From positions 682,001 to 746,000 of the forward strand of contig CP011392.1 in NCBI GenBank assembly GCA_001005265.1: a stretch of DNA of 64,000 bases, given 5' to 3'. Positions 420 to 60,512 of the stretch are shown piece by piece. Each line of letters starts with the position of its first letter. Within the stretch, counting starts at the first letter, position 1. A model generated the notes under the pieces. The model was not told the DNA's origin and did no database searches. It saw only the letters and a program-made list of their open reading frames with translations. The position numbers and the translations under genes were made by a program. The stretch comes from Dehalogenimonas sp. WBC-2 (GTDB lineage Bacteria; Chloroflexota; Dehalococcoidia; Dehalococcoidales; Dehalococcoidaceae).

Positions 420-2390
420 TCAGGGGTTATTTTTAATGATAGTAGCGGTAATTCCCAAGTGATCTGACGCAGTACCGGTGACTAGCTCCACATTGGTCCA
501 ACCTAGGTCGGCAGAAACCCAAATATAGTCAATGCGCTGGTATAAGTCGTCAGCACGAAAAGTGAATGCTGGCGGCGGCTCAATTGACTGAAGGACATCC
601 TGTAAACCGGCGGCACGCATAAGGTCGATCTCGGGATCCTCAGGTTCGGCATTGAAGTCTCCCATGATTATGGTATCACTGGTGTTGCCGAAGAAATCAA
701 GAAAAGCGGTAACTTGTGCCACGCGTATATCTGAATCATCTGCGACGTGATGCAGGTGAATGTCAATCACCTGAAAATTTTTCCCTCCGACTTCAATAAT
801 CATAGAAATAAAACCGCGTTCAAGCGGCAGGTCTTGAGACGGCAGAGGGATATTGGTTGCCGAAATTATGGGATAGCGGGATAATATTGCGTTTCCCCAG
901 AAAGCACCGGATGTAGACCCGAAATAATGTGGCATACCGAGACGCACAGATAACCACTCCAGCATATCTGTGCGGCCGCTTACCAGCCAACCTCGGGAAA
1001 TCTCTTGGAGAGCAATTATATCCGCGCCGCTGCTTTCAATGCTTTTAGCCAAAGCTTCCAGGTCCAGCCATCCGTCAGCGTTAAATCCATTATGCAGATT
1101 GTAGGTGATGACCTTTAACGGGAAGCCGGTGTCCGCTGTACTGGGAGTTGGTTTGGTCATAACCAGTCCTAATGGCAGGGTCAGAGCAATTAAGCCGGTC
1201 AGGATGCCTAAAAACCATTGCTGGCGTCGGATGCGAAGCCTCGGCCCCATATGACGAAGTGAGGTCATTGCTCCGCCAGCCACTAACACTGCGGCCACGG
1301 TCAAAATGATGGAATTGTTGTAGGGAAGGGCGATTTGATAAACGGCATAATAGCCAAGGATAAAAATAACTAGCAATAGCATGCCGATGCCGTTGGCGAG
1401 TGGCAATGACATAGAACCACCGCGGCGGGTGCTGGCGGAAAGTCCGATAATAACCGCGAAGAAGAGCTGCGAAGTAGCAACAACACCGATGAAAAACAGT
1501 ATCCCTTCAAGCCAGCCTGCCAGATAAGGGAAAAAGATGAAAGTTATTAGCAGACCTGCTGAGAACAGGGTGATAAAATAAATCGTATCTTCGTGTAAAG
1601 AATGGAAATAATAAGCTGCTATTATCCCGATTACCTGGGCGGCGGCAATCAATAAAAAGGTCAGACCGGTATCCCATCCGGTCAAAGTAGAAAGTGCGGG
1701 AATGTTCTGAAGGATGAGAAGTTGTAAAAAAAGGAATGGGCCGACCGAAAGCCAGGCCCCCGCCTTGTTTCTGAGGTTTGGGGTACTTATGGGATGCCGC
1801 TTGTAGTAGTTTTTAAAGGCAAGGAATGATAGTACCATCGCAATTATGGTGGTCACTAAAATGGGGAACAGACTTTGTTGCCAGGCAAGATCATAGGTTC
1901 CAGCTGCGCCGTAAATCAAGGTGTCCAAAGCAATACCACCCAAGAAACCACCGGCAAAGAGCGGCATAGCCAGGTTATCATGCCGTCTGACTTCATCAAC
2001 ATAAACCGGTAAAAAAATGGTAAAGAAGGCTACCCCGAGAGCGGCAAAAACCAGGCCAAAAATTGGGGCCCCCGGCCAGAATTGAAGACTCAACCTGAAA
2101 AATATTAACCCTGCGAGGCTGACGGTAACAAGTGTCCTGTAGTTGAGGCGGCGCTGTAAGGGTTCTACAAGAAAGGCAATCGAAAAAACCAGAATAGCGA
2201 TTGCTCCCAGCGGAAAGGCTCCCAGGCCGTATTTATCACCGAGAGTCCAGGTCATACCGGAAACAAATACCCTGATGCTTTGTAATCCGAAGACCACAGC
2301 CAGCGCCGGAAGCAGGATAGCAGAGGCAGTTTCCGGCAGTTTTATATTTAGTTTGGATATTATTTCATCCCGGCGCACGGCGATAATCAT
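420..2390 (-). CDS. Polytopic membrane protein with C-terminal endonuclease/exonuclease/phosphatase (EEP) domain
   Basis: The 656-residue protein has two parts. Residues ~20-415 are very hydrophobic, with roughly ten or more predicted membrane segments. Residues ~423-656 form an EEP-superfamily domain (DNase I/sphingomyelinase/inositol phosphatase fold). The catalytic motifs are present in order: YNLHNG (~430), LQE with the metal-binding Glu (~463), NAILSRYP, GDFN (~577), RIDYIW (~619) and SDH (~642). It should therefore be a membrane-tethered metal-dependent phosphodiesterase or phosphatase. The substrate cannot be read from sequence; related domains act on lipids, phosphoinositides or nucleic acid. 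It lies 24 bases downstream of the RNase H-fold gene, so the two are probably co-transcribed. Confidence 0.82.
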   Translation of the reverse strand: MIIAVRRDEIISKLNIKLPETASAILLPALAVVFGLQSIRVFVSGMTWTLGDKYGLGAFPLGAIAILVFSIAFLVEPLQRRLNYRTLVTVSLAGLIFFRLSLQFWPGAPIFGLVFAALGVAFFTIFLPVYVDEVRRHDNLAMPLFAGGFLGGIALDTLIYGAAGTYDLAWQQSLFPILVTTIIAMVLSFLAFKNYYKRHPISTPNLRNKAGAWLSVGPFLFLQLLILQNIPALSTLTGWDTGLTFLLIAAAQVIGIIAAYYFHSLHEDTIYFITLFSAGLLITFIFFPYLAGWLEGILFFIGVVATSQLFFAVIIGLSASTRRGGSMSLPLANGIGMLLLVIFILGYYAVYQIALPYNNSIILTVAAVLVAGGAMTSLRHMGPRLRIRRQQWFLGILTGLIALTLPLGLVMTKPTPSTADTGFPLKVITYNLHNGFNADGWLDLEALAKSIESSGADIIALQEISRGWLVSGRTDMLEWLSVRLGMPHYFGSTSGAFWGNAILSRYPIISATNIPLPSQDLPLERGFISMIIEVGGKNFQVIDIHLHHVADDSDIRVAQVTAFLDFFGNTSDTIIMGDFNAEPEDPEIDLMRAAGLQDVLQSIEPPPAFTFRADDLYQRIDYIWVSADLGWTNVELVTGTASDHLGITATIIKNNP

Positions 2391-2414
2391 AGCATGTCTA
2401 GCAACGTTATGGTA

Positions 2415-2912
2415 TCAGATAACGTTGCTCCGGAGGATTATCAGGTTTTGGGTGTCTTCTTTATTATACTCAAGGAGTATTTGCAGAGCGGTCGAATCAT
2501 AGTCATTTATGTAACGCCACCATAAGCGTACCGCCTCATATCCATTTACATCGGGGAGGCGGCGTTTGATGCCCAGCATCGGTTCAATTTTTTTAAGACC
2601 GCCGCGCAAGCCTCTTCGATGACAATGGTACATCAGGTCGCAGTGGCTGATACCATGGGCTTCCAGGTCAACACCCAGCCGTTGGCGAATATATGGTAAA
2701 TCAAAACGTGAACCGTTGAAGGTATAGACGGTATTGACACCTGTCATAACCGTTAACAGCGCTTCAGCGGTTATATCGTCACCCACCAACTGGACGAACT
2801 CTTCCTCCAAGCCCCGGCAAAGATGAATCCCAATGACGGTTATATCGCAGGCATCCGGGCTTAACCCGGTAGTCTCGATATCTAAATAGGCGTCACAATG
2901 AATTCCTGTCAT
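2415..2912 (-). CDS. RNase H-fold 3'-5' exonuclease-like protein (YprB type)
   Basis: This 165-residue protein matches the ribonuclease H-like family seen in YprB-type proteins (DEDD exonuclease fold). Visible acidic residues are D11 and E13 in the motif LDIETTGLSP, D71 in YTFNGSRFD, D92 in CDLMYH and D153 in the motif YNKEDTQNL. That is the Exo I, II and III arrangement of DEDD nucleases. YprB proteins often carry C-terminal repeats, which are absent here, so this is the bare nuclease domain. It is the first gene of a likely two-gene transcript with the EEP membrane protein. The substrate is unknown; nucleic-acid 3'-end trimming is the reasonable inference. Confidence 0.82.
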   Translation of the reverse strand: MTGIHCDAYLDIETTGLSPDACDITVIGIHLCRGLEEEFVQLVGDDITAEALLTVMTGVNTVYTFNGSRFDLPYIRQRLGVDLEAHGISHCDLMYHCHRRGLRGGLKKIEPMLGIKRRLPDVNGYEAVRLWWRYINDYDSTALQILLEYNKEDTQNLIILRSNVI

Positions 2913-3173
2913 ATTGCCTGATTATATCAAATTGAAGCAGTAAACGATGGAGACTGCCATAAAATTAACATAAAATATAGTTTTTACACATAAAATAAAT
3001 ATATTGCGAATCAACAAAACAGCGTTTTGATCATCGATGATGGCTGAAAAAGGTCGGATGAGTGCTGAGTTGTGCAGCTTTGTTTTGAAACAGGATTTTA
3101 ATTTATAGCAAAGCGGAAATAGATTGCCGATTAAAGGTTTCTATCTATCCGAGCACAAAAAATCTATTGGTGA
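2913..3173. other. AT-rich intergenic stretch
   Basis: This 261-base stretch lies between two minus-strand genes. It is AT-rich, with several A/T runs at 2970-3005, and probably holds the promoter of the exonuclease gene to its left. I see no RNA gene, strong hairpin or coding signal. No clear terminator for the DUF5343-like gene could be identified. Confidence 0.4.
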
Positions 3174-3890
3174 TTATTTTTTAATTGTCGGGACTTTTTG
3201 GAGTAGTTCATCAAAGGCTCCGAACCACCGTAATTTAACTTCCTCAGTCCAAGTGGGATCAAATGCCGGAAATTTGGCAAGAAGCAACTGGCTTATGGAT
3301 GGAGAAGCAGGAGTTTCACCGGATTCGGATGTCATGTTAAGGTCAGATGGATCCCCGTTCACTAAAGGATCAGAGGATTGCGTTAACCCTTTTCTGGGTT
3401 TTTTAGCGGGTGAGGTCGTCCGTGTATTTTTGGATTTTCGGGTAATAAATGGAGAAAGACTTATACCTGCATCTCCAGATATCCCGATAAAAAACTTAAT
3501 GCATTTGTGGCCGACATCTGTCGTGATTTGGAAATTTTCCTTTAATTTTTCTTCCAGTTGGGAATATGTGGCAGCGGCGGGGTCGAGGGCTTCAATAAAA
3601 AAGGGATAAGCCTCACGCGTCAGCTGTTGCAATAAGTCAGATCGCTGTGGGCCTTTGGCGAATACTATTTGTCGCAGGCGAAGAGTGGGTACTCCGACAC
3701 CATCAATAAGCCGAAGGTATTTTAATGCCGCAATCAACTGGCCGCCTGTACTGCCGGAAAATTTATCTCCCCAATAACTGCGATCTATGCGCGCTGGCAC
3801 TGCGGCCTTCAGTCCGTCCAGGAAATTCCAGAACGTCCGGTATGAAATATAAGGCGGCAAAGATTTGGGAACAAGTAGATTCATAGCCAA
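3174..3890 (-). CDS. DUF5343-like hypothetical protein
   Basis: This 238-residue protein resembles the DUF5343 family. Its N-terminus has PPYISYRTFWNFLDGLK, then RIDRSYWGDKFSGSTGGQLIAALKYL, the usual beginning of that family, which looks like a helix-turn-helix-type fold. Residues ~140-195 are a Ser/Pro/Thr-rich, probably disordered linker. The C-terminus has a second short conserved-looking block (LLAKFPAFDPTWTEEVKLRWFGAFDELL). The function is unknown and I do not assign one. It is transcribed divergently from the small ORF and ftsA. Its predicted promoter (3899-3927) overlaps the first copy of a 9-base direct repeat, so its expression may be controlled by a factor binding there. Confidence 0.7.
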   Translation of the reverse strand: MAMNLLVPKSLPPYISYRTFWNFLDGLKAAVPARIDRSYWGDKFSGSTGGQLIAALKYLRLIDGVGVPTLRLRQIVFAKGPQRSDLLQQLTREAYPFFIEALDPAAATYSQLEEKLKENFQITTDVGHKCIKFFIGISGDAGISLSPFITRKSKNTRTTSPAKKPRKGLTQSSDPLVNGDPSDLNMTSESGETPASPSISQLLLAKFPAFDPTWTEEVKLRWFGAFDELLQKVPTIKK

Positions 3891-52343: not shown

Positions 52344-53066
52344 TTATAGTTTTTTTAATTTTATATCTCCCCAGACTCCGAGTTGGTCATCTTTAATAGC
52401 TAAGGCTCCGGTCACGCCGCTGGTATTTTTTGCCAGTTCCAAAGCTAGCGGGATATCTGAAGCGGTTTGTATGAGGTTTGCGCATGCAGTTGCCGCTGCA
52501 TCGGCCAGGCTGGCCGATGCAGCGATGATGGTCATCGCATCTGCTCTCCCAAAGGAGAGAGAATGCCCCACTGTGCCGGATGAGGTACAGATGCCGCATG
52601 GTGTTTCCCCGGCCTTAATCTCAAGACCAATTGTGCCGCTTAAGGGAGAATTCCCGGCAAAGATACCGATGATGCGGTCTTTGGTGCTACAGATATAAAT
52701 ATCGCCGCCGTTCTCAATTATGACATCGGGAGTGTATTCCCGTAACTCTTCACCAACAAACTTTGCAACCGCCCCAGCCACCGCCGCCATTGGTCCAACA
52801 CCGGTATTCTGGGCTGCTTGAGCCATATCTAAAATTATATTCGGCGCTTGGGGCTCGGTCTCCACCGGTTTTAAAGATGTTAAAAAATCAGGGTGCTGGG
52901 CAATATACTGTTCAATGATCTTACGGTACTTAAGTACCAGGCGCTCCGTCTTGCGTTTGAGATCACAGCAGGCAGACACAAACAAATTAGTTTCTTTAAT
53001 GCTGACAACAAAAGACACCAGGTCAGAGCTTTCTGACCGGTTACGGTAGGTTCTAGGTTGATACAT
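52344..53066 (-). CDS. UPF0280 (ApbE-like) protein of the homocysteine cluster
   Basis: The 240-residue protein belongs to UPF0280, an ApbE-related family: GVGPMAAVAGAVAKFVGEEL, VIIENGGDIYI and CTSSGTVGHSLSFGRADAMTI. It matches MA1820 of Methanosarcina by family. It is the third gene of a cluster with a DUF39 protein and a NIL-ferredoxin, which in Methanosarcina acetivorans is required for homocysteine from aspartate semialdehyde. Only three bases separate it from the ferredoxin gene. Its individual role is not known. Confidence 0.88.
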   Translation of the reverse strand: MYQPRTYRNRSESSDLVSFVVSIKETNLFVSACCDLKRKTERLVLKYRKIIEQYIAQHPDFLTSLKPVETEPQAPNIILDMAQAAQNTGVGPMAAVAGAVAKFVGEELREYTPDVIIENGGDIYICSTKDRIIGIFAGNSPLSGTIGLEIKAGETPCGICTSSGTVGHSLSFGRADAMTIIAASASLADAAATACANLIQTASDIPLALELAKNTSGVTGALAIKDDQLGVWGDIKLKKL

Positions 53067-53069
53067 GGT

Positions 53070-53480
53070 TTAAAAATGTAATTCCATGGCACGTGAAGGG
53101 CAGGATAGAATACATAGACCACAGACAATGCAGGTGTCTTCGTGGAAAATTACTTCACGGGTTTGAGTATCAACAATGAATGAAGACACAGGGCAAACAG
53201 TAACGCACGCGCCACAATCGGTACAGCGGTCTTCATTGCGGGTAATCTCGCGGCAGAGTGTGTCAATAATAAGCCCGGTTCCGGTCAGATAATCTATGCC
53301 CTTATCGAAATTGGCGCGTTCTCCACGCAGTTCCAGTACCATATGGCCTTCTTCGCTACTGATAGAGGCTTTAAGGATATTTAATTCCAGATTGTAATCT
53401 TTAATCAGGTGGTAGACCACCGGGCGATCAACCAAATGGCGCGGAAAACGAAGAGATATTTTTTTACAAGTTACGGTCAT
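53070..53480 (-). CDS. NIL domain-4Fe-4S ferredoxin fusion of the homocysteine cluster
   Basis: The 136-residue protein has an N-terminal NIL domain (KISLRFPRHLVDRPVVYHLIKDYNLELNILKASI) and a C-terminal pair of 4Fe-4S sites with CTDCGACVTVCP and CIVCGLCILSCP. It matches MA1822. It should shuttle electrons for the homocysteine-forming DUF39 enzyme. It starts 2 bases after the DUF39 stop codon, so translation is coupled. Confidence 0.92.
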   Translation of the reverse strand: MTVTCKKISLRFPRHLVDRPVVYHLIKDYNLELNILKASISSEEGHMVLELRGERANFDKGIDYLTGTGLIIDTLCREITRNEDRCTDCGACVTVCPVSSFIVDTQTREVIFHEDTCIVCGLCILSCPSRAMELHF

Positions 53481-53482
53481 AT

Positions 53483-54703
53483 CTATTTCCCATCCACTCC
53501 ATTTATCGGGCGCTCATTGAGTAATTTGAATTTTATCCCGCTTTCAGGACCTGGTAAAGCCGCAACTGCCGCAGATAATTCGAACCCGCCCGCCTCTATC
53601 CATTTTTTGAGGGTCGCAGCAATTTCCCGTGCTCGCGGGTAGCTTGACAAGGAGGCGGTTGGAATTTCACGACGGTTGATCACCACTTTGCCGGATCGAA
53701 GTTCTCCATAGCTGACCTCGGCAACCACATCTGGATTGGTCTCCGGGTAAGCGTGGGAGTAATCAATAACAGCGGCAAAAATATCGTCGTCGGTTACGGT
53801 AGTGTACTTCAGTATTTCCTCATCAAGAATAGGAATGGGTATGCCGATGCCAACCGAGATGGTGGCTCCGTATCCCAGCATGCTGGCGCCCCTAAGATAG
53901 CGCGGATTCATTTGTTTAAGATCACCGATGACAGCTAGTGTTCCGGCGCCACGCTTGGGTACGCCGCCTTCAGTACGAATTACATCGGGGTTGAATTGAG
54001 TTCCAGGCCAGGTTACATAACCGGTTCCACCGCCCAAAAAAATCCGGGTGCCAATGCCAATAGTCTTGTAGAGCGGGTCGTTTAGCAATGGTGATAACTG
54101 GCCAGCGCTGCAATAGTTGATGTTACCCATGTTAGGTTTGAGAGTGCCCATATAGGTATAGATGGCGTGGTCCGAAAGGTTAACGGCAACATTATAGTTC
54201 TGGTAGCAGTTTCTCATGTTAAATAGAACGGCCTCGTTGAGGTCTTTGATATTTATCCAGGTCTCTAGTTTTTTACGCGGGTAGCAGTCTGTACCGTAGG
54301 CCTGGGCAACCAGTTTCACATCCCTGCCCGCCACCAATTCCTCAATAACATGTCCGCCACCGTAATTGAACTCACCAGGGTGCACTCTGTTTCGCGGATC
54401 ATCGTCGGGTAATGCGTTGGCGCCTAGCATAATGTCCGTCGCAGCAAAGCCTCCATAAGCGGGAACATCATTTAGATATATTTTACCGCCGCCGAGTTTG
54501 ATACGCGGCTTACTGTGACCGATATTGAAATAAGCGCCAGATGAACACATTGGACCGAAGGTGCCTGTAGTGACCACATCCACTTCTTTAGCGGCACGCG
54601 CCAGCCCTTTTTCCCGCACTACACCGATAATCTCTTCAGCGGTAAAAACCACCGCCTGACCGGTGCGAATCTTTTGATTGATCTCTTCAATCGTTTTGGC
54701 CAT
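53483..54703 (-). CDS. Homocysteine-biosynthesis protein of the DUF39 (COG1900) family
   Basis: The 406-residue protein is of the DUF39/HcyBio family, MA1821 in Methanosarcina. It has the family start KTIEEINQKIRTGQAVVFTAEE, the glycine-rich GTFGPMCSSGAYFNIGHSKPRIK, IGIGTRIFLGGGTGYVTWPGTQ, and a Cys-containing segment AQAYGTDCYPRKK. Family members convert aspartate semialdehyde and sulfide to homocysteine, bypassing O-acyl-homoserine. With the next two genes it is a complete cluster. It diverges from the his operon. Confidence 0.92.
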   Translation of the reverse strand: MAKTIEEINQKIRTGQAVVFTAEEIIGVVREKGLARAAKEVDVVTTGTFGPMCSSGAYFNIGHSKPRIKLGGGKIYLNDVPAYGGFAATDIMLGANALPDDDPRNRVHPGEFNYGGGHVIEELVAGRDVKLVAQAYGTDCYPRKKLETWINIKDLNEAVLFNMRNCYQNYNVAVNLSDHAIYTYMGTLKPNMGNINYCSAGQLSPLLNDPLYKTIGIGTRIFLGGGTGYVTWPGTQFNPDVIRTEGGVPKRGAGTLAVIGDLKQMNPRYLRGASMLGYGATISVGIGIPIPILDEEILKYTTVTDDDIFAAVIDYSHAYPETNPDVVAEVSYGELRSGKVVINRREIPTASLSSYPRAREIAATLKKWIEAGGFELSAAVAALPGPESGIKFKLLNERPINGVDGK

Positions 54704-54856: not shown

Positions 54857-54883
54857 CAGGCATTCAATATTGAGGGAGAAGTG

Positions 54884-56122
54884 ATGACTCAAGACCGATG
54901 TCGCGGTTGCCGTGATTTGATTCCCGATGAGATGCTTAAATTCCGCCTGGCGGAATCGGTGTTTATCGATACGACGCTAAAATGGGGCTATGAAGAGGTG
55001 CGAACTCCGGTGCTGGAATACCTGCACCTATTTACATCCACCGGTACTTTAACCCCTGGTATGCTGGGACAGGTGTATTCCTTCCTTGACTGGGATGGCT
55101 GGAGTGGAGAACGGGTGGTGATGCGCCCGGATGGTACGATACCTATTGCCAGACTGTTCATTGACAATCTGACTGACAGGGACGTGGCGCGTCTTTTTTA
55201 TGTGATTAATATTTTCCGGTTTGAGAATGACCCCTTGATCAACCGGGAGCGATGGCAGTGTGGCGCTGAGCTTATAGGCGGTAATTCACCACTCGCTGAT
55301 GCTGAACTGTTACGTATGGGATTAGAGGTTCTGGAGTTGCTGGGGCTAAACGTGCGTGTCAGTATCTCCCATTCTGGAGTCATCCAGGCGATACTGGCTC
55401 AACTTGAACCTAACTCTGAAGTCCGTCACCACATATTTGATCAGATTCTGGACGGTAATCAAGCCGTGTTGTCTGAACTGAAAGATAAGCATCCAGGTTT
55501 AATGGCTGGCCTGGAATTGTTGCTGAATGTTACAGGAGCTTCAGCAGAATATTTGGCTAATATCAAATCATTATTCACTTATTCCGATGAATTGAAAAAT
55601 GCGGCCGATAGTTTTGGTAACACGCTTGATATGCTGGACAGTCTGGGGGTTGCTTATGATATAGACCTCGCCTCGGGACGCGGCTTTGAGTATTACACCG
55701 GAATTATTTTTCACTTCACTGTTGAGGGAAAAGCTGTTGGCGGCGGCGGCCGGTACGACAATCTTATCGGGCTCATGGGTGGTGAACGGCGGCCGGCGGC
55801 CGGCTATGCTCTCTATCTTGATGAGATAATGAATCACATTGATGTCTCGGAATACAGTCTTGATGAACCAGATCGTTTCCTTATTAATTTTGCGCCTGGC
55901 GACGAAGCCCAGGCTTTCAGTGTAGCCACAGATTTGCGTGATGCGGATTATACTGCCGAGATTAAAATGGGCGATCCGAATGTTCAGGAATACGATTGGG
56001 TGCTTAATATCACCGATGAAGGTCTGCTGATTCTTTCAGACACTGAAACCGACGAGGAGTTTGAGTTTGATTCAATAGATGAATTGATCGAAATGTTGGG
56101 TGGGGAGGCATCGGAAGAATGA
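54884..56122 (+). CDS. hisZ: ATP phosphoribosyltransferase regulatory subunit HisZ
   Basis: HisZ is a histidyl-tRNA synthetase-like protein that activates and regulates short HisG. The 412-residue product (ATG 54884, GGGAG upstream) has class II motif 2-like and motif 3-like segments (VMRPDGTIPIARLF, GGRYDNLIGLMGG) and SGRGFEYYTGIIFHF. It has the HisRS catalytic fold but begins without the usual HIGH-like charging features. The acidic C-terminus resembles a reduced anticodon-binding domain. hisG overlaps by four bases (ATGA). Confidence 0.92.
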   Translation: MTQDRCRGCRDLIPDEMLKFRLAESVFIDTTLKWGYEEVRTPVLEYLHLFTSTGTLTPGMLGQVYSFLDWDGWSGERVVMRPDGTIPIARLFIDNLTDRDVARLFYVINIFRFENDPLINRERWQCGAELIGGNSPLADAELLRMGLEVLELLGLNVRVSISHSGVIQAILAQLEPNSEVRHHIFDQILDGNQAVLSELKDKHPGLMAGLELLLNVTGASAEYLANIKSLFTYSDELKNAADSFGNTLDMLDSLGVAYDIDLASGRGFEYYTGIIFHFTVEGKAVGGGGRYDNLIGLMGGERRPAAGYALYLDEIMNHIDVSEYSLDEPDRFLINFAPGDEAQAFSVATDLRDADYTAEIKMGDPNVQEYDWVLNITDEGLLILSDTETDEEFEFDSIDELIEMLGGEASEE

Positions 56123-57519
56123 GGATTGCCCTGCCTAAAGGTCGATTGCTGGCCGATACGGCTTCTCTTTTAGAAAGAGCAAATTGGCAGTTGAATGATT
56201 ACCAGCCAAAAGCCAGGCTATACCGGTTGACCAGTGCCCGCTTCCCTGACCTGTCCGCTAAAATGCTCCATGAAAAAGATATTCCGATACAGGTGGCTAT
56301 CGGCAACTATGACCTGGGGATCTGCGGTGCTGACTGGGTTGAGGAGCTCATCTCCCGCCATACATTAAGTTCACTGGTCAAAGTGAAAAATCTGGGTTAT
56401 GGTTATGGAGCTCTTTTCGCTGCCTCTGCGGCTGGTGACGGAGTAAACTCGCTGCTTGACCTGTCAAAGCGTAGCGGTAAAGTAAGATTGGCCTCAGAGT
56501 ACCCGAATTTGGCGGAAAAATTAGCTATTGATCTGCGGCTTAAAAATTTTGCCGTATATCCTTTATGGGGCAGTGCAGAGGCTTATCCTCCTGAGACGGC
56601 CGAAGTTGTTATTTTGCCCAGAAAAAATGCTGAAGAACTTGAAACCAAAGGTTTAAAGGTATTGGGCAAGGTTTTGGATTTTAAAGCGGTGCTGGTGGCC
56701 AACCGTAACAGCTTGGCGTCCAAAGATCTTTCAGCGGCAATTTCATCAATAGTTGAAAATCTCAATCCGGCTGTTTCCGGTGATCAGGCCACAATTTCCG
56801 GTGCTGGCGGCGCCCTTGAGGCTTACCATGAATATACTCAGGATGTGGTGCGTCTGGCACTGCCTGATGGCCATCAGCAACCTCACGTCCGCAAGATACT
56901 GGATGCGGCCAATATTAGTATCACTGACTACCCCTCTGATCGGGGATTGCGGCGTCCAGTGAGTGACATGGGTGGCTTTGCCATTAAGACTATCCGGCCT
57001 CAGGATATGCCTCTTCAAGTAGCCAACGGCAACTTTGATCTGGCTATAACAGGATGGGACTGGTTGACCGATCATCTGCATCAGTTTCCGGGCAGTCCGG
57101 TCAAGAGGCTATTAGATCTCAAATACGGTTGGGTGCGGATTGTGGCGGTAGTGGCCAATGAAGTGCCGGTAACCAACGCTGTCGAGCTTAAAGAATATTT
57201 CCGGGGACAAAACTTGCGGGTCGCCACGGAGTATATTAATATCGCTGACGACTATGCCCGGCACAATCACTTCGGCCGTTACCGCATTGCCCCCACCTGG
57301 GGTTCTACTGAGGCGTATATTCCTGAAGATGCTGATCTTCTGATAGAAAATACGGAAACAGGCGGCACCATTGCCCGTCACAACCTGCGCATCATAGACA
57401 CACTGTTTGAGTCTACCGCCTGTGTTATCGGCAATACTCAGGCTGCAGGCAACCCGGTCAAGAGGCAGCGTATGGAAACCTTTGTGAAGCGTCTGTCTGC
57501 GGCGTTGGAAAAGGTCTAA
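56119..57519 (+). CDS. hisG: ATP phosphoribosyltransferase HisG, two tandem HisG units in one protein
   Basis: A normal short HisG has ~210 residues; this one has 466, formed of two HisG-like units. Residues 1-~215 have IALPKGRL (3-10), IGNYDLGICGADWVEE (61-76) and RLASEYPNLAEKL. They lack the phosphate-binding TGxT loop and have PRKNAEEL (167-174) there. Residues ~240-466 have LALPDGHQ (246-253) instead of LPKGRL, but keep NGNFDLAITGWDWL, RVATEYINIA and ENTETGGT (410-417). Each unit retains a different active-site half. HisZ is adjacent and coupled. The unit forms one reading frame with no frameshift. Confidence 0.93.
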   Translation: MRIALPKGRLLADTASLLERANWQLNDYQPKARLYRLTSARFPDLSAKMLHEKDIPIQVAIGNYDLGICGADWVEELISRHTLSSLVKVKNLGYGYGALFAASAAGDGVNSLLDLSKRSGKVRLASEYPNLAEKLAIDLRLKNFAVYPLWGSAEAYPPETAEVVILPRKNAEELETKGLKVLGKVLDFKAVLVANRNSLASKDLSAAISSIVENLNPAVSGDQATISGAGGALEAYHEYTQDVVRLALPDGHQQPHVRKILDAANISITDYPSDRGLRRPVSDMGGFAIKTIRPQDMPLQVANGNFDLAITGWDWLTDHLHQFPGSPVKRLLDLKYGWVRIVAVVANEVPVTNAVELKEYFRGQNLRVATEYINIADDYARHNHFGRYRIAPTWGSTEAYIPEDADLLIENTETGGTIARHNLRIIDTLFESTACVIGNTQAAGNPVKRQRMETFVKRLSAALEKV

Positions 57520-57521
57520 TT

Positions 57522-58838
57522 GTGGAAATTATCCGGGGTTTCAAAGAGGCGTCAAAGACACTAAAGAGACGTGTCCATGGTGGTTTTATCAGTGAGGCAA
57601 CACGCCGGACATTATCTCAAAGATATCAGATACATGATCTTGAGGGTATGATCCAGGGTATTATCAATGAAGTATGGGAAAACGGTGATGAAGCGTTACG
57701 GCGCTTCACCAAAGAATATGATCACGCTGCCATTGATACAATTGAAGTCTCCAGGGCAGAAATTGAAGCTGCGGCGCTTTCAGTCGACACAGAACTGTTA
57801 GCAGCTTTGGAATTGGCTGCCGGGCGCATCCGTAATTTTCACCAACGGCAACACACGGCGTTGCTGGAGGCGGCAAAAAAAATGGACGGTGAACAAATGT
57901 ATCGTCCGCTGTCACGGGTAGGCTGTTACGCCCCGGGAGGGACGGCTTTTTACCCGTCCAGCGTGCTGATGACAGCCATTCCAGCTAAAGTAGCCGGAGT
58001 ATCTGAGATATGTCTGGTAACACCTCCGGGGGCAGACGGACAAGTACCGTCTGCAACTCTGGCCGCGGCAAAATTGGCTGGTGTTGATCATGTATATCGT
58101 ATTGGAGGGGCGCAGGCGGTGGCCGCGCTGGCTATCGGAACTAAGTCGGTACCTAAGGTTGACAAGATCTGCGGACCAGGTAGTATTTTTGTCACCGTCG
58201 CCAAGCGCCTTCTATATGGCATGGTAGCCATTGACGGTCTGCAGGGACCGAGTGAAGTTTTTATTATTGCTGATGATACGGCTAATCCGGTTTTTATTGC
58301 CGCTGATATGATGGCACAGGCAGAGCATGACCCGCTGGCGACTACGGTTCTGGCAACAACATCTGAGCGTGTTGCCGAAGCGGTGGCAGCAGAACTTAAC
58401 CGGGCGGTGGAGAGTCTTTCCCGACAGTTCGTTATTCACCAATCTTTGTCTAATATGTCCTGCATTGCCATTGTATCTTCGCCTGAAGAAGCGGTGGAGC
58501 TATCAAATATGTATGCTCCGGAACATTTGCTTATATTGACTGCCGGCGCAGAACAATTGGTACCTAAAATACAACATGCCGGTTGCGTCTTCATCGGCGA
58601 TAAGGCATCAGTAGCCTTCGGTGATTACATCGCCGGTCCCAGTCACGTTCTGCCAACCTCCGGTACGGCTCGTTTCAGTTCTCCGTTAAACATTTTGGAC
58701 TTTTTGAAGATTATTGATGTGGTCAGGGTTGATGACATAATGGTAAAAGAACTGGGACCGGCGGCAGCGACCATCGCTCATGCCGAAGGTTTGACTGCCC
58801 ACGAAAACGCCCTCAGATTAAGAATGGAGGCGCTTTGA
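57522..58838 (+). CDS. hisD: Histidinol dehydrogenase
   Basis: It makes the last two oxidations to histidine. The 438-residue product has CYAPGGTAFYPSSVLM, the KICGPGSIFVTVAKR signature, the zinc-ligand region PSEVFIIAD and MMAQAEHDPLA, and the C-terminal GPSHVLPTSGTARFSS. GTG start two bases after hisG. hisC overlaps the end by four bases. Confidence 0.97.
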   Translation: MEIIRGFKEASKTLKRRVHGGFISEATRRTLSQRYQIHDLEGMIQGIINEVWENGDEALRRFTKEYDHAAIDTIEVSRAEIEAAALSVDTELLAALELAAGRIRNFHQRQHTALLEAAKKMDGEQMYRPLSRVGCYAPGGTAFYPSSVLMTAIPAKVAGVSEICLVTPPGADGQVPSATLAAAKLAGVDHVYRIGGAQAVAALAIGTKSVPKVDKICGPGSIFVTVAKRLLYGMVAIDGLQGPSEVFIIADDTANPVFIAADMMAQAEHDPLATTVLATTSERVAEAVAAELNRAVESLSRQFVIHQSLSNMSCIAIVSSPEEAVELSNMYAPEHLLILTAGAEQLVPKIQHAGCVFIGDKASVAFGDYIAGPSHVLPTSGTARFSSPLNILDFLKIIDVVRVDDIMVKELGPAAATIAHAEGLTAHENALRLRMEAL

Positions 58839-59920
58839 TAGATCTCAGGCGTTTCATGCGCCGGGAATTAGATAAATTTGCCGGTTATGCCGCCTGCAAG
58901 TCTCCCGAGGTGCTTGATAAAGAAGTACGCCAGTTAGGCGTACTCAAACTGGACGCCAATGAGAACGTATACGGCGCATCGCCAAGGGTCAAAGCAGCTT
59001 TTTCGCATTTTGATGATGCTCACATCTACCCGGACAGTTGCCAAACAGAACTGAGAAAAGCGCTATCGGACTATGCCCATATCGGGGTTGAAAACATCGT
59101 GGCTGGCTCCGGCTCCGACCAACTCATTGATCTATTGGTGAGGCTCTTTGTCAATGCCGGTGATGAAGTCATAAGCTTCACGCCGACATTTGCCATGTAC
59201 AAGTTTTATACTGAGTTGTCTGGTGGACGCTTTATAGCTGTCCCGCGGGATGCTGAGTATAATGTCGTTTTGGAAGATTTGACGCCGGTAATCTCTTCCC
59301 GTACCAAACTGATATTTATTGCCATGCCCAATAATCCCACCGGCACTCAGCCACCGATTCAGACGGTCATGAAACTCATTGATACTGGCTTGCCAGTGGT
59401 AGTTGATGAAGCATATTATGAGTTTACCGGCCAAACCATGGCAGCACAACTTGAAAAATACCCCAATCTGATGATTCTGCGCACCTTCAGCAAATGGGCT
59501 GGGCTGGCCGGTTTGCGGGTTGGTTATGGCCTCTTCCCGCGTGTTGTCGCTGAACGAATGGACGCTATCAAGGACCCATATTGTGTTAACGCCGCAGCAG
59601 TGCTGGCAACACGGGAATCGCTTAAAGACATTGGTTTCCTCATGGATAAAGTTCAACTAATCGTCAATGAGAGGGAGCGGCTTTTCCAATTATTGATTAA
59701 GATCGACTACCTTAAACCATATCCATCCAGCGCTAATTTTATCTTGTGTAAGGTCATTGGCAAAAATGCGCTGGATATTCAATTTAAATTAGAGCGCCGG
59801 GGTATACTGGTGCGTCATTTTGATTCACCGCAGATGGAAAACTGCCTGCGTTTCAGTATCGGCAGACCCCAGGATACTGACAGACTTATCGCTGAACTCC
59901 AGAAAATAAAGGAGCTATAA
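58835..59920 (+). CDS. hisC: Histidinol-phosphate aminotransferase
   Basis: PLP aminotransferase of fold type I that transaminates imidazole-acetol phosphate. The 361-residue product has [10 protein letters not shown] near the start, NNPTGTQPP, the PLP-binding DEAYYEFTG and the Lys region [16 protein letters not shown], and ENCLRFSIG near the end. It starts at TTG overlapping the hisD stop (TTGA); ATG 58856 inside is less likely. Confidence 0.93.
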
Positions 59921-59921
59921 C

Positions 59922-60512
59922 ATGACTGAACGTAAAGCTACAGTTAAGCGGGAGACAAAAGAGACCACTATCAGCGTAACGGTGAATCTGGATGGCACCG
60001 GTAAGGATGAAATGTGCACCGGTATCAGGCTTTTTGATCATATGCTGTCTCAAATAGCCCGCCACGGAGTGATTGACATAAAAGTGTCGGCTACAGGGGA
60101 TGACGTGCATCATCTGGTAGAAGATGTCGGTATAACGCTAGGCAAGGCATTCAACGAGGCACTGGGTGACAAACGGGGGCTGGTGCGGGCCGGCGACTCC
60201 ACGGTGCCTATGGATGAGGCGCTGGCGACGGTAGCCATTGATATCGGGGGCCGGGGTTACTCTGTCCTTAGCATGGAATTTGAGAATAACGATATGTCCG
60301 GTTTTCCCGCTGATCTTATCCGTCACTTTTTAGAGAGCTTTGCGGCGGAAGGACGACTGAATTTGCACGCTGGTGTAGCCTATGGCACTAACGACCATCA
60401 CAAGGCCGAGGCGGTATTCAAAGCACTGGGCCGGGCTCTGGACAAAGCAACCCGCATTGACCCGCGGATAAGTGACAGATTGCCGTCTACCAAGGAGTTT
60501 ATTGAGGGGTAG
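59922..60512 (+). CDS. hisB: Imidazoleglycerol-phosphate dehydratase
   Basis: It removes water from imidazoleglycerol phosphate. The 196-residue protein has the duplicated His-rich metal sites: [42 protein letters not shown] and [19 protein letters not shown]. It is the monofunctional dehydratase without the phosphatase domain. ATG 59922 follows an AAGGAGC site next to the hisC stop. Confidence 0.97.

Follow-up and report, generated by a model that had tools for sequence, protein, structure and literature searches.

Together with its regulatory subunit HisZ, the short form of HisG (HisG-S) serves as a model for allosteric activation. In the Psychrobacter arcticus enzyme (PaHisG) the mechanism is ordered with PRPP first, and the highly conserved Arg56 of one subunit extends over the dimer interface into the partner's site, where it meets the pyrophosphate of PRPP; HisZ is proposed to favour or to position this contact (PMC9734150). 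The R56A substitution costs 42-fold and R56K 24-fold, and Arg56 and Arg32, i.e. the R of the KGR motif, can partly replace each other (PMC9734150). Another arginine, Arg73, contacts the gamma-phosphate of ATP bound in the adjacent subunit (PMC10998830). A search of the literature, with most subscription journals lying outside it, turned up no paper on HisG units in tandem, nor any on hisG in either Dehalococcoides or Dehalogenimonas. We describe here a HisG of Dehalogenimonas sp. WBC-2 whose enzyme family is certain; what is new about it is its architecture and the asymmetry of its active site.

The window analysed is a stretch of 64,000 nucleotides of this genome. The hisG gene (56119-57519, forward strand) is an open reading frame with an ATG start that encodes 466 amino acids; the protein begins with MRIALPKGRLL and matches both PF01634 and TIGR00070 twice. 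It is preceded on the same strand by hisZ (54881-56122; 413 amino acids, GTG start; PF13393, 192.9 bits), which overlaps the start of hisG with its 3' end by 4 nt, and is followed in the same operon by hisD, hisC and hisB (57522-60512, forward strand; PF00815, PF00155 and PF00475), so that the gene order is hisZ-hisG-hisD-hisC-hisB. The Pfam profile search detected no anticodon-binding domain in the hisZ product. A second, separate PF13393 gene was found elsewhere in the genome by profile search and is presumed to be the real HisRS. Three genes at 52344-54703 on the reverse strand run divergently from the his operon; their products are HcyBio (PF01837, homocysteine biosynthesis), a NIL/4Fe-4S ferredoxin and a protein of 240 aa that matched no Pfam family.

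The profile search found no further HisG in the genome (one contig, 1.73 Mb, 99.75% complete), which rules out a second, ordinary HisG elsewhere; HisI and HisA/HisF, the enzymes of step 2 and steps 4/5, are present. As the sole HisG of the genome, the fused protein has to carry out the first step if the organism makes histidine, and from this and from the presence of the other his genes we infer that it catalyses PR-ATP formation. The HisG_C domain (PF08029) had no match in the fused protein, where the only Pfam matches are to PF01634, nor in the genome; the protein is thus not a long-form HisG.

The first-pass annotation had read the 466-residue product as two HisG units, and the profiles bear this out. 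Against curated cut-offs of 25.5 bits (PF01634) and 75.75 bits (TIGR00070), unit 1 alone scores 89.6 and 129.3 bits and unit 2 alone 114.1 and 118.3 bits, respectively. Unit 1 (aa 1-220, 56119-56778) carries the KGR site K7-G8-R9 (56137-56145) and R33 (56215-56217), which aligns with PaHisG Arg56, a residue that acts in trans on the PRPP pyrophosphate (PMC9734150). The stretch that aligns with PaHisG D176-T183 reads LPRKNAEE (aa 166-173, 56614-56637) and is a degenerate remnant of the PRPP loop, in unconserved columns. A linker (aa 221-238, 56779-56832) leads to unit 2 (aa 239-466, 56833-57516), in which D250-G251-H252 (56866-56874) occupies the K-G-R position, R293 (56995-56997) is the equivalent of PaHisG Arg73 (role from PMC10998830), and the PRPP phosphate-binding loop is kept as E410-N-T-E-T-G-G-T417 (57346-57369). 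All of these features lie on the forward strand. The annotated motifs, i.e. LPKGRL and DLGICGADW without a TGxT loop in unit 1, and ENTETGGT with LPDGHQ at the KGR site in unit 2, are all as described, except that the KGR of unit 1 proved not to be invariant in relatives; the direct coupling to HisZ that had been claimed is seen both here and in most of the relatives.

The distribution of these sites was examined in 126 distinct fused proteins aligned to the P. arcticus HisG, the reference sequence being identical to that of 5m8h. The fact that 126 distinct relatives keep the arrangement rules out chance or assembly error as its source. Scored with the pattern [DE]xx[DE][TS]Gx[TS], the PRPP loop is intact in 125/126 sequences of unit 2 and in 0/126 of unit 1. 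At the KGR site of unit 1 the G is invariant, K is found in 114/123 and R in 96/123 of the sequences with letters there, and the deep branches read LPTGDL; unit 2 has D-G-H in all 126. The single-domain HisGs of the Chloroflexota also vary at this site, with T12, K6, Q6 and N3 at the K position and V9, R9, A7 and S4 at the R position (KGS, TGV, QGT, IGH and other variants), and loss of KGR is therefore no mark of a dead site. Cys115 is lost from both units. As unit 2 has D and H at the positions of Lys30 and Arg32 and V at that of Cys115, its site is non-standard. In one relative (L067, genome G174; 892-2580), unit 2 has two matchless stretches within a 563-codon open frame, possibly inserts.

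The equivalent of Arg56, in a column anchored by a neighbouring R-x-Y-x-P-type motif that is shared with the long-form HisGs of the class, is R in 110/124 sequences of unit 1 as against 1/126 of unit 2. The exceptions in unit 1 are three relatives with K, all from the same family and one genus (L007, L011, L022), and 11 others with G, S, C or H; G or S occurs in the related Dehalococcoidales L003, L159, L162, L164, L181, L183, L185, L190 and L193. R9 of KGR is always kept in these K and G/S variants. More generally, R9 is present in 14/14 unit 1 sequences without R33, and R33 in 22/22 without R9; none of the 124 lacks both where about 2.5 would be expected, a difference that is not significant (P about 0.055, kinship ignored). 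The pattern is reminiscent of P. arcticus, where Arg32 and Arg56 rescue one another. A search of the alignment for covariation behind the loss of R33 showed lineage-specific changes only. The equivalent of Arg73 follows the opposite course: it is R in 126/126 sequences of unit 2 and H, Q or N in most of unit 1, where K or R stands two residues past this column in 123/124. Among 35 HisGs the Arg73-type residue is R in 31 and K in 4.

The loss of the loop has not left unit 1 free to vary. Its columns Asp87, Asp94 (110/126) and Glu98 are strongly constrained, and its mean entropy is 0.71 bits at PaHisG columns 70-99 versus 2.56 bits at columns 174-188, the corresponding values for unit 2 being 0.53 versus 0.75 bits. 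In other words, the alignment columns show unit 1 to be strongly constrained outside the PRPP loop.

The same fusion, for which a search of the Dehalococcoidia had been proposed, is widespread there: one match spans both units in 108/197 sampled genomes of the class (by row count). In the order, HisG was found in 57/61 genomes, with exactly two matches in 54/57. A spread of this kind rules out chance or a frameshift artefact. The HisG_C domain of the long form occurs in 56/197 sampled genomes of the class, and the five single HisGs of the class that were examined were all long-form (5/5). One genome of the class (G172) holds both a fused HisG (C4:45341-46669) and a long-form HisG_C domain (C27:15645-15860). 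No tandem HisG was seen in other classes among 301 genomes drawn from the phylum, where the HisGs are single; five out-of-class genomes with two HisG matches have them in separate places or as fragments, and in 0/5 do two units share a frame. A scan of genome contigs of 84,980 species, the one search to cover phyla beyond the Chloroflexota, gave as its best 80 relatives MAGs titled Chloroflexota, mostly Dehalococcoidia, plus two bins titled Deltaproteobacteria, and absence elsewhere does not follow from these 80 matches. The two Deltaproteobacteria records (L136, L158) carry a fused hisG of the Dehalococcoidia type and are probably mislabelled bins. With 126 distinct copies in many Dehalococcoidia lineages, the fused HisG is an old protein, conserved class-wide. 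A hisZ gene lies upstream in 143/146 fused hisG loci with room for it, some of which share a genome, and the overlap is typically 4 nt. Since the short single HisGs of other classes likewise follow a hisZ-like gene, the hisZ-hisG pair is likely the ancestral layout.

In a tree of 25 unit 1, 25 unit 2 and 23 single HisG sequences, the first units, the second units and the single HisGs each form one side of a branch, with supports of 100/100, 99/98 and 100/96. The two units share states that are mostly missing from the single HisGs, namely Gln at PaHisG Tyr80, Asn at Ala85 and Trp at Val95. Given the well-supported clades and these shared states, the simplest reading is a single event of tandem duplication and fusion. 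In two genomes derived from metagenomes the units are adjacent, separately translated genes, a natural two-subunit version of the fused enzyme: L063 (G115; 1695-3451) has a TGATG stop/start overlap, and in L064 (G100; 1829-3194) an assembly frameshift is possible instead. The tree places both among the fused forms or close to them, with weak support, and their two-gene state is likely a secondary splitting. As they encode the units separately, the units can probably associate in trans.

The AlphaFold2 model of the fused chain, made with 58 relatives, has a mean pLDDT of 91.6 and a pTM of 0.89; pLDDT is low only at linker residues 222-230, where it falls below 50 and flexibility is predicted. 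Unit 2 of the model matches solved HisGs with Z up to 19.6 (rmsd 2.0 over 223 residues) and Foldseek also lists HisGs, the structure-search alignments covering unit 2 only and so having no bearing on unit 1 or on the packing between units. The model suggests a defined mutual orientation of the two 220-residue units, as floating domains would hardly give a pTM of 0.89, and it supports their tight packing; the arrangement would be that of the ordinary HisG dimer, head to tail.

We consider it probable, on the residue patterns described above, that the protein is a covalent pseudo-dimer with one PRPP site, located in unit 2 and completed in trans by unit 1. The obligatory homodimer of a HisG-S would have become one chain through tandem duplication and fusion, and would then have become asymmetric. 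Unit 2 alone would bind PRPP and make PR-ATP. Unit 1 would be catalytically dead; its part would be to shape the crevice and to supply R33, which would reach over the pseudo-dimer interface to the pyrophosphate of the PRPP bound at unit 2. In normal HisG, HisZ is proposed to position this contact. Because unit 1 lost its loop and unit 2 lost the arginine that would serve that same site, both complementary losses hit one site. The site of unit 2 would retain both loop and donor, and no other argument speaks as strongly for a single composite site there. Neither half carries all catalytic residues, unit 2 being without the Arg56 equivalent. The first-pass annotation had proposed that complementary losses make the two units cooperate; the asymmetric decay and the probable dependence of the units on each other stand, whereas the idea that KGR and TGG are the halves of one site is weakened, because KGR varies in single HisGs and the trans residue in the structures is Arg56. 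The number of active sites is probably altered as well, and the complex would have half the usual sites, e.g. two fused chains per HisZ tetramer instead of four HisG chains.

Some observations run against a simple donor scheme. R33 is not universal, the R56K change was costly in PaHisG, and R293 is invariant in unit 2, the equivalent of Arg73 being mostly H, Q or N in unit 1. As the Arg73 pattern is opposite to the Arg56 pattern, the active site has been remodelled and the pseudo-dimer model is not proven. Alternatively, unit 1 could hold a nucleotide whose phosphate is gripped by R293; it would then be an allosteric, ATP/AMP-sensing pocket, with unit 2 as the sole catalytic site. The invariance of R293, the contact of PaHisG Arg73 with ATP in the adjacent subunit (PMC10998830) and the constrained Asp87, Asp94 and Glu98 columns of unit 1 agree with such a pocket, but it is unlikely on the whole: the constrained residues may be structural, Arg73-type residues are near-universal in HisGs so that R293 needs no special role, unit 1 has no PRPP loop left, and the PaHisG mechanism is ordered with PRPP first.

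It is improbable that the units do not pair within the chain at all, i.e. that unit 1 pairs with unit 2 of another chain in a domain swap, or that each unit pairs with its own kind. The linker is flexible and oligomerisation is not readable from sequence; against this, the pTM of 0.89 was obtained from a single chain, and two second units paired with each other would have no Arg56 equivalent at either site. An active site to which unit 1 contributes KGR and unit 2 the TGGT loop is, in our judgement, equally hard to credit, since in the HisG fold the KGR loop sits at the cleft within its own chain, KGR is variable in the single HisGs of the phylum, and deep branches of unit 1 have TGD instead. 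The observation that R9 and R33 are never both missing from unit 1 would suit such a site, as would the partial interchange of Arg32 and Arg56 in PaHisG (PMC9734150), but the literature that we found does not place Arg32 in trans.

Building on the pseudo-dimer with its single site in unit 2, we tentatively put forward a wider claim, with somewhat less confidence. The protein may be a natural, class-wide case of a covalent heterodimer made from an enzyme that is normally a homodimer. It would have one composite site, with the trans arginines shared out between a dead half and a live one, and HisZ would act via the dead half to regulate the remodelled, invariant D-G-H/E-N-T-E-T-G site. It would be a case of a homodimeric enzyme turned into an obligate pseudo-heterodimer. 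In ordinary HisG the subunits are identical and a mutation strikes both sites; the fused chain would separate donor from acceptor, so that each arm of the proposed HisZ mechanism could be mutated alone.

The protein shares with the known fusions of the his pathway (the internal duplication of hisA/hisF, hisIE, hisHF, hisNB and hisIED) the principle of gene elongation or fusion; hisG is not among the five fusions of a 2007 survey (PMC1963479). Like HisG-L, a homohexamer that occurs in the same class and consists of HisG plus HisG_C, it has an extra part in the chain. In HisG-L, however, this part is a histidine-binding domain and there is no HisZ, whereas here it is a second HisG. The closest likeness is to the HisG-S/HisZ systems of P. 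arcticus, Acinetobacter baumannii, Lactococcus lactis and Thermotoga maritima, with which it has in common the HisG fold, the PRPP loop, the adjacent hisZ and the lack of a regulatory domain of its own. HisG-S has a single unit of about 200-230 aa per chain and four chains per hetero-octamer; the fused protein, in contrast, has two units per chain, one PRPP loop, DGH in place of KGR in the loop-bearing unit, and its Arg56 and Arg73 equivalents divided between the units.
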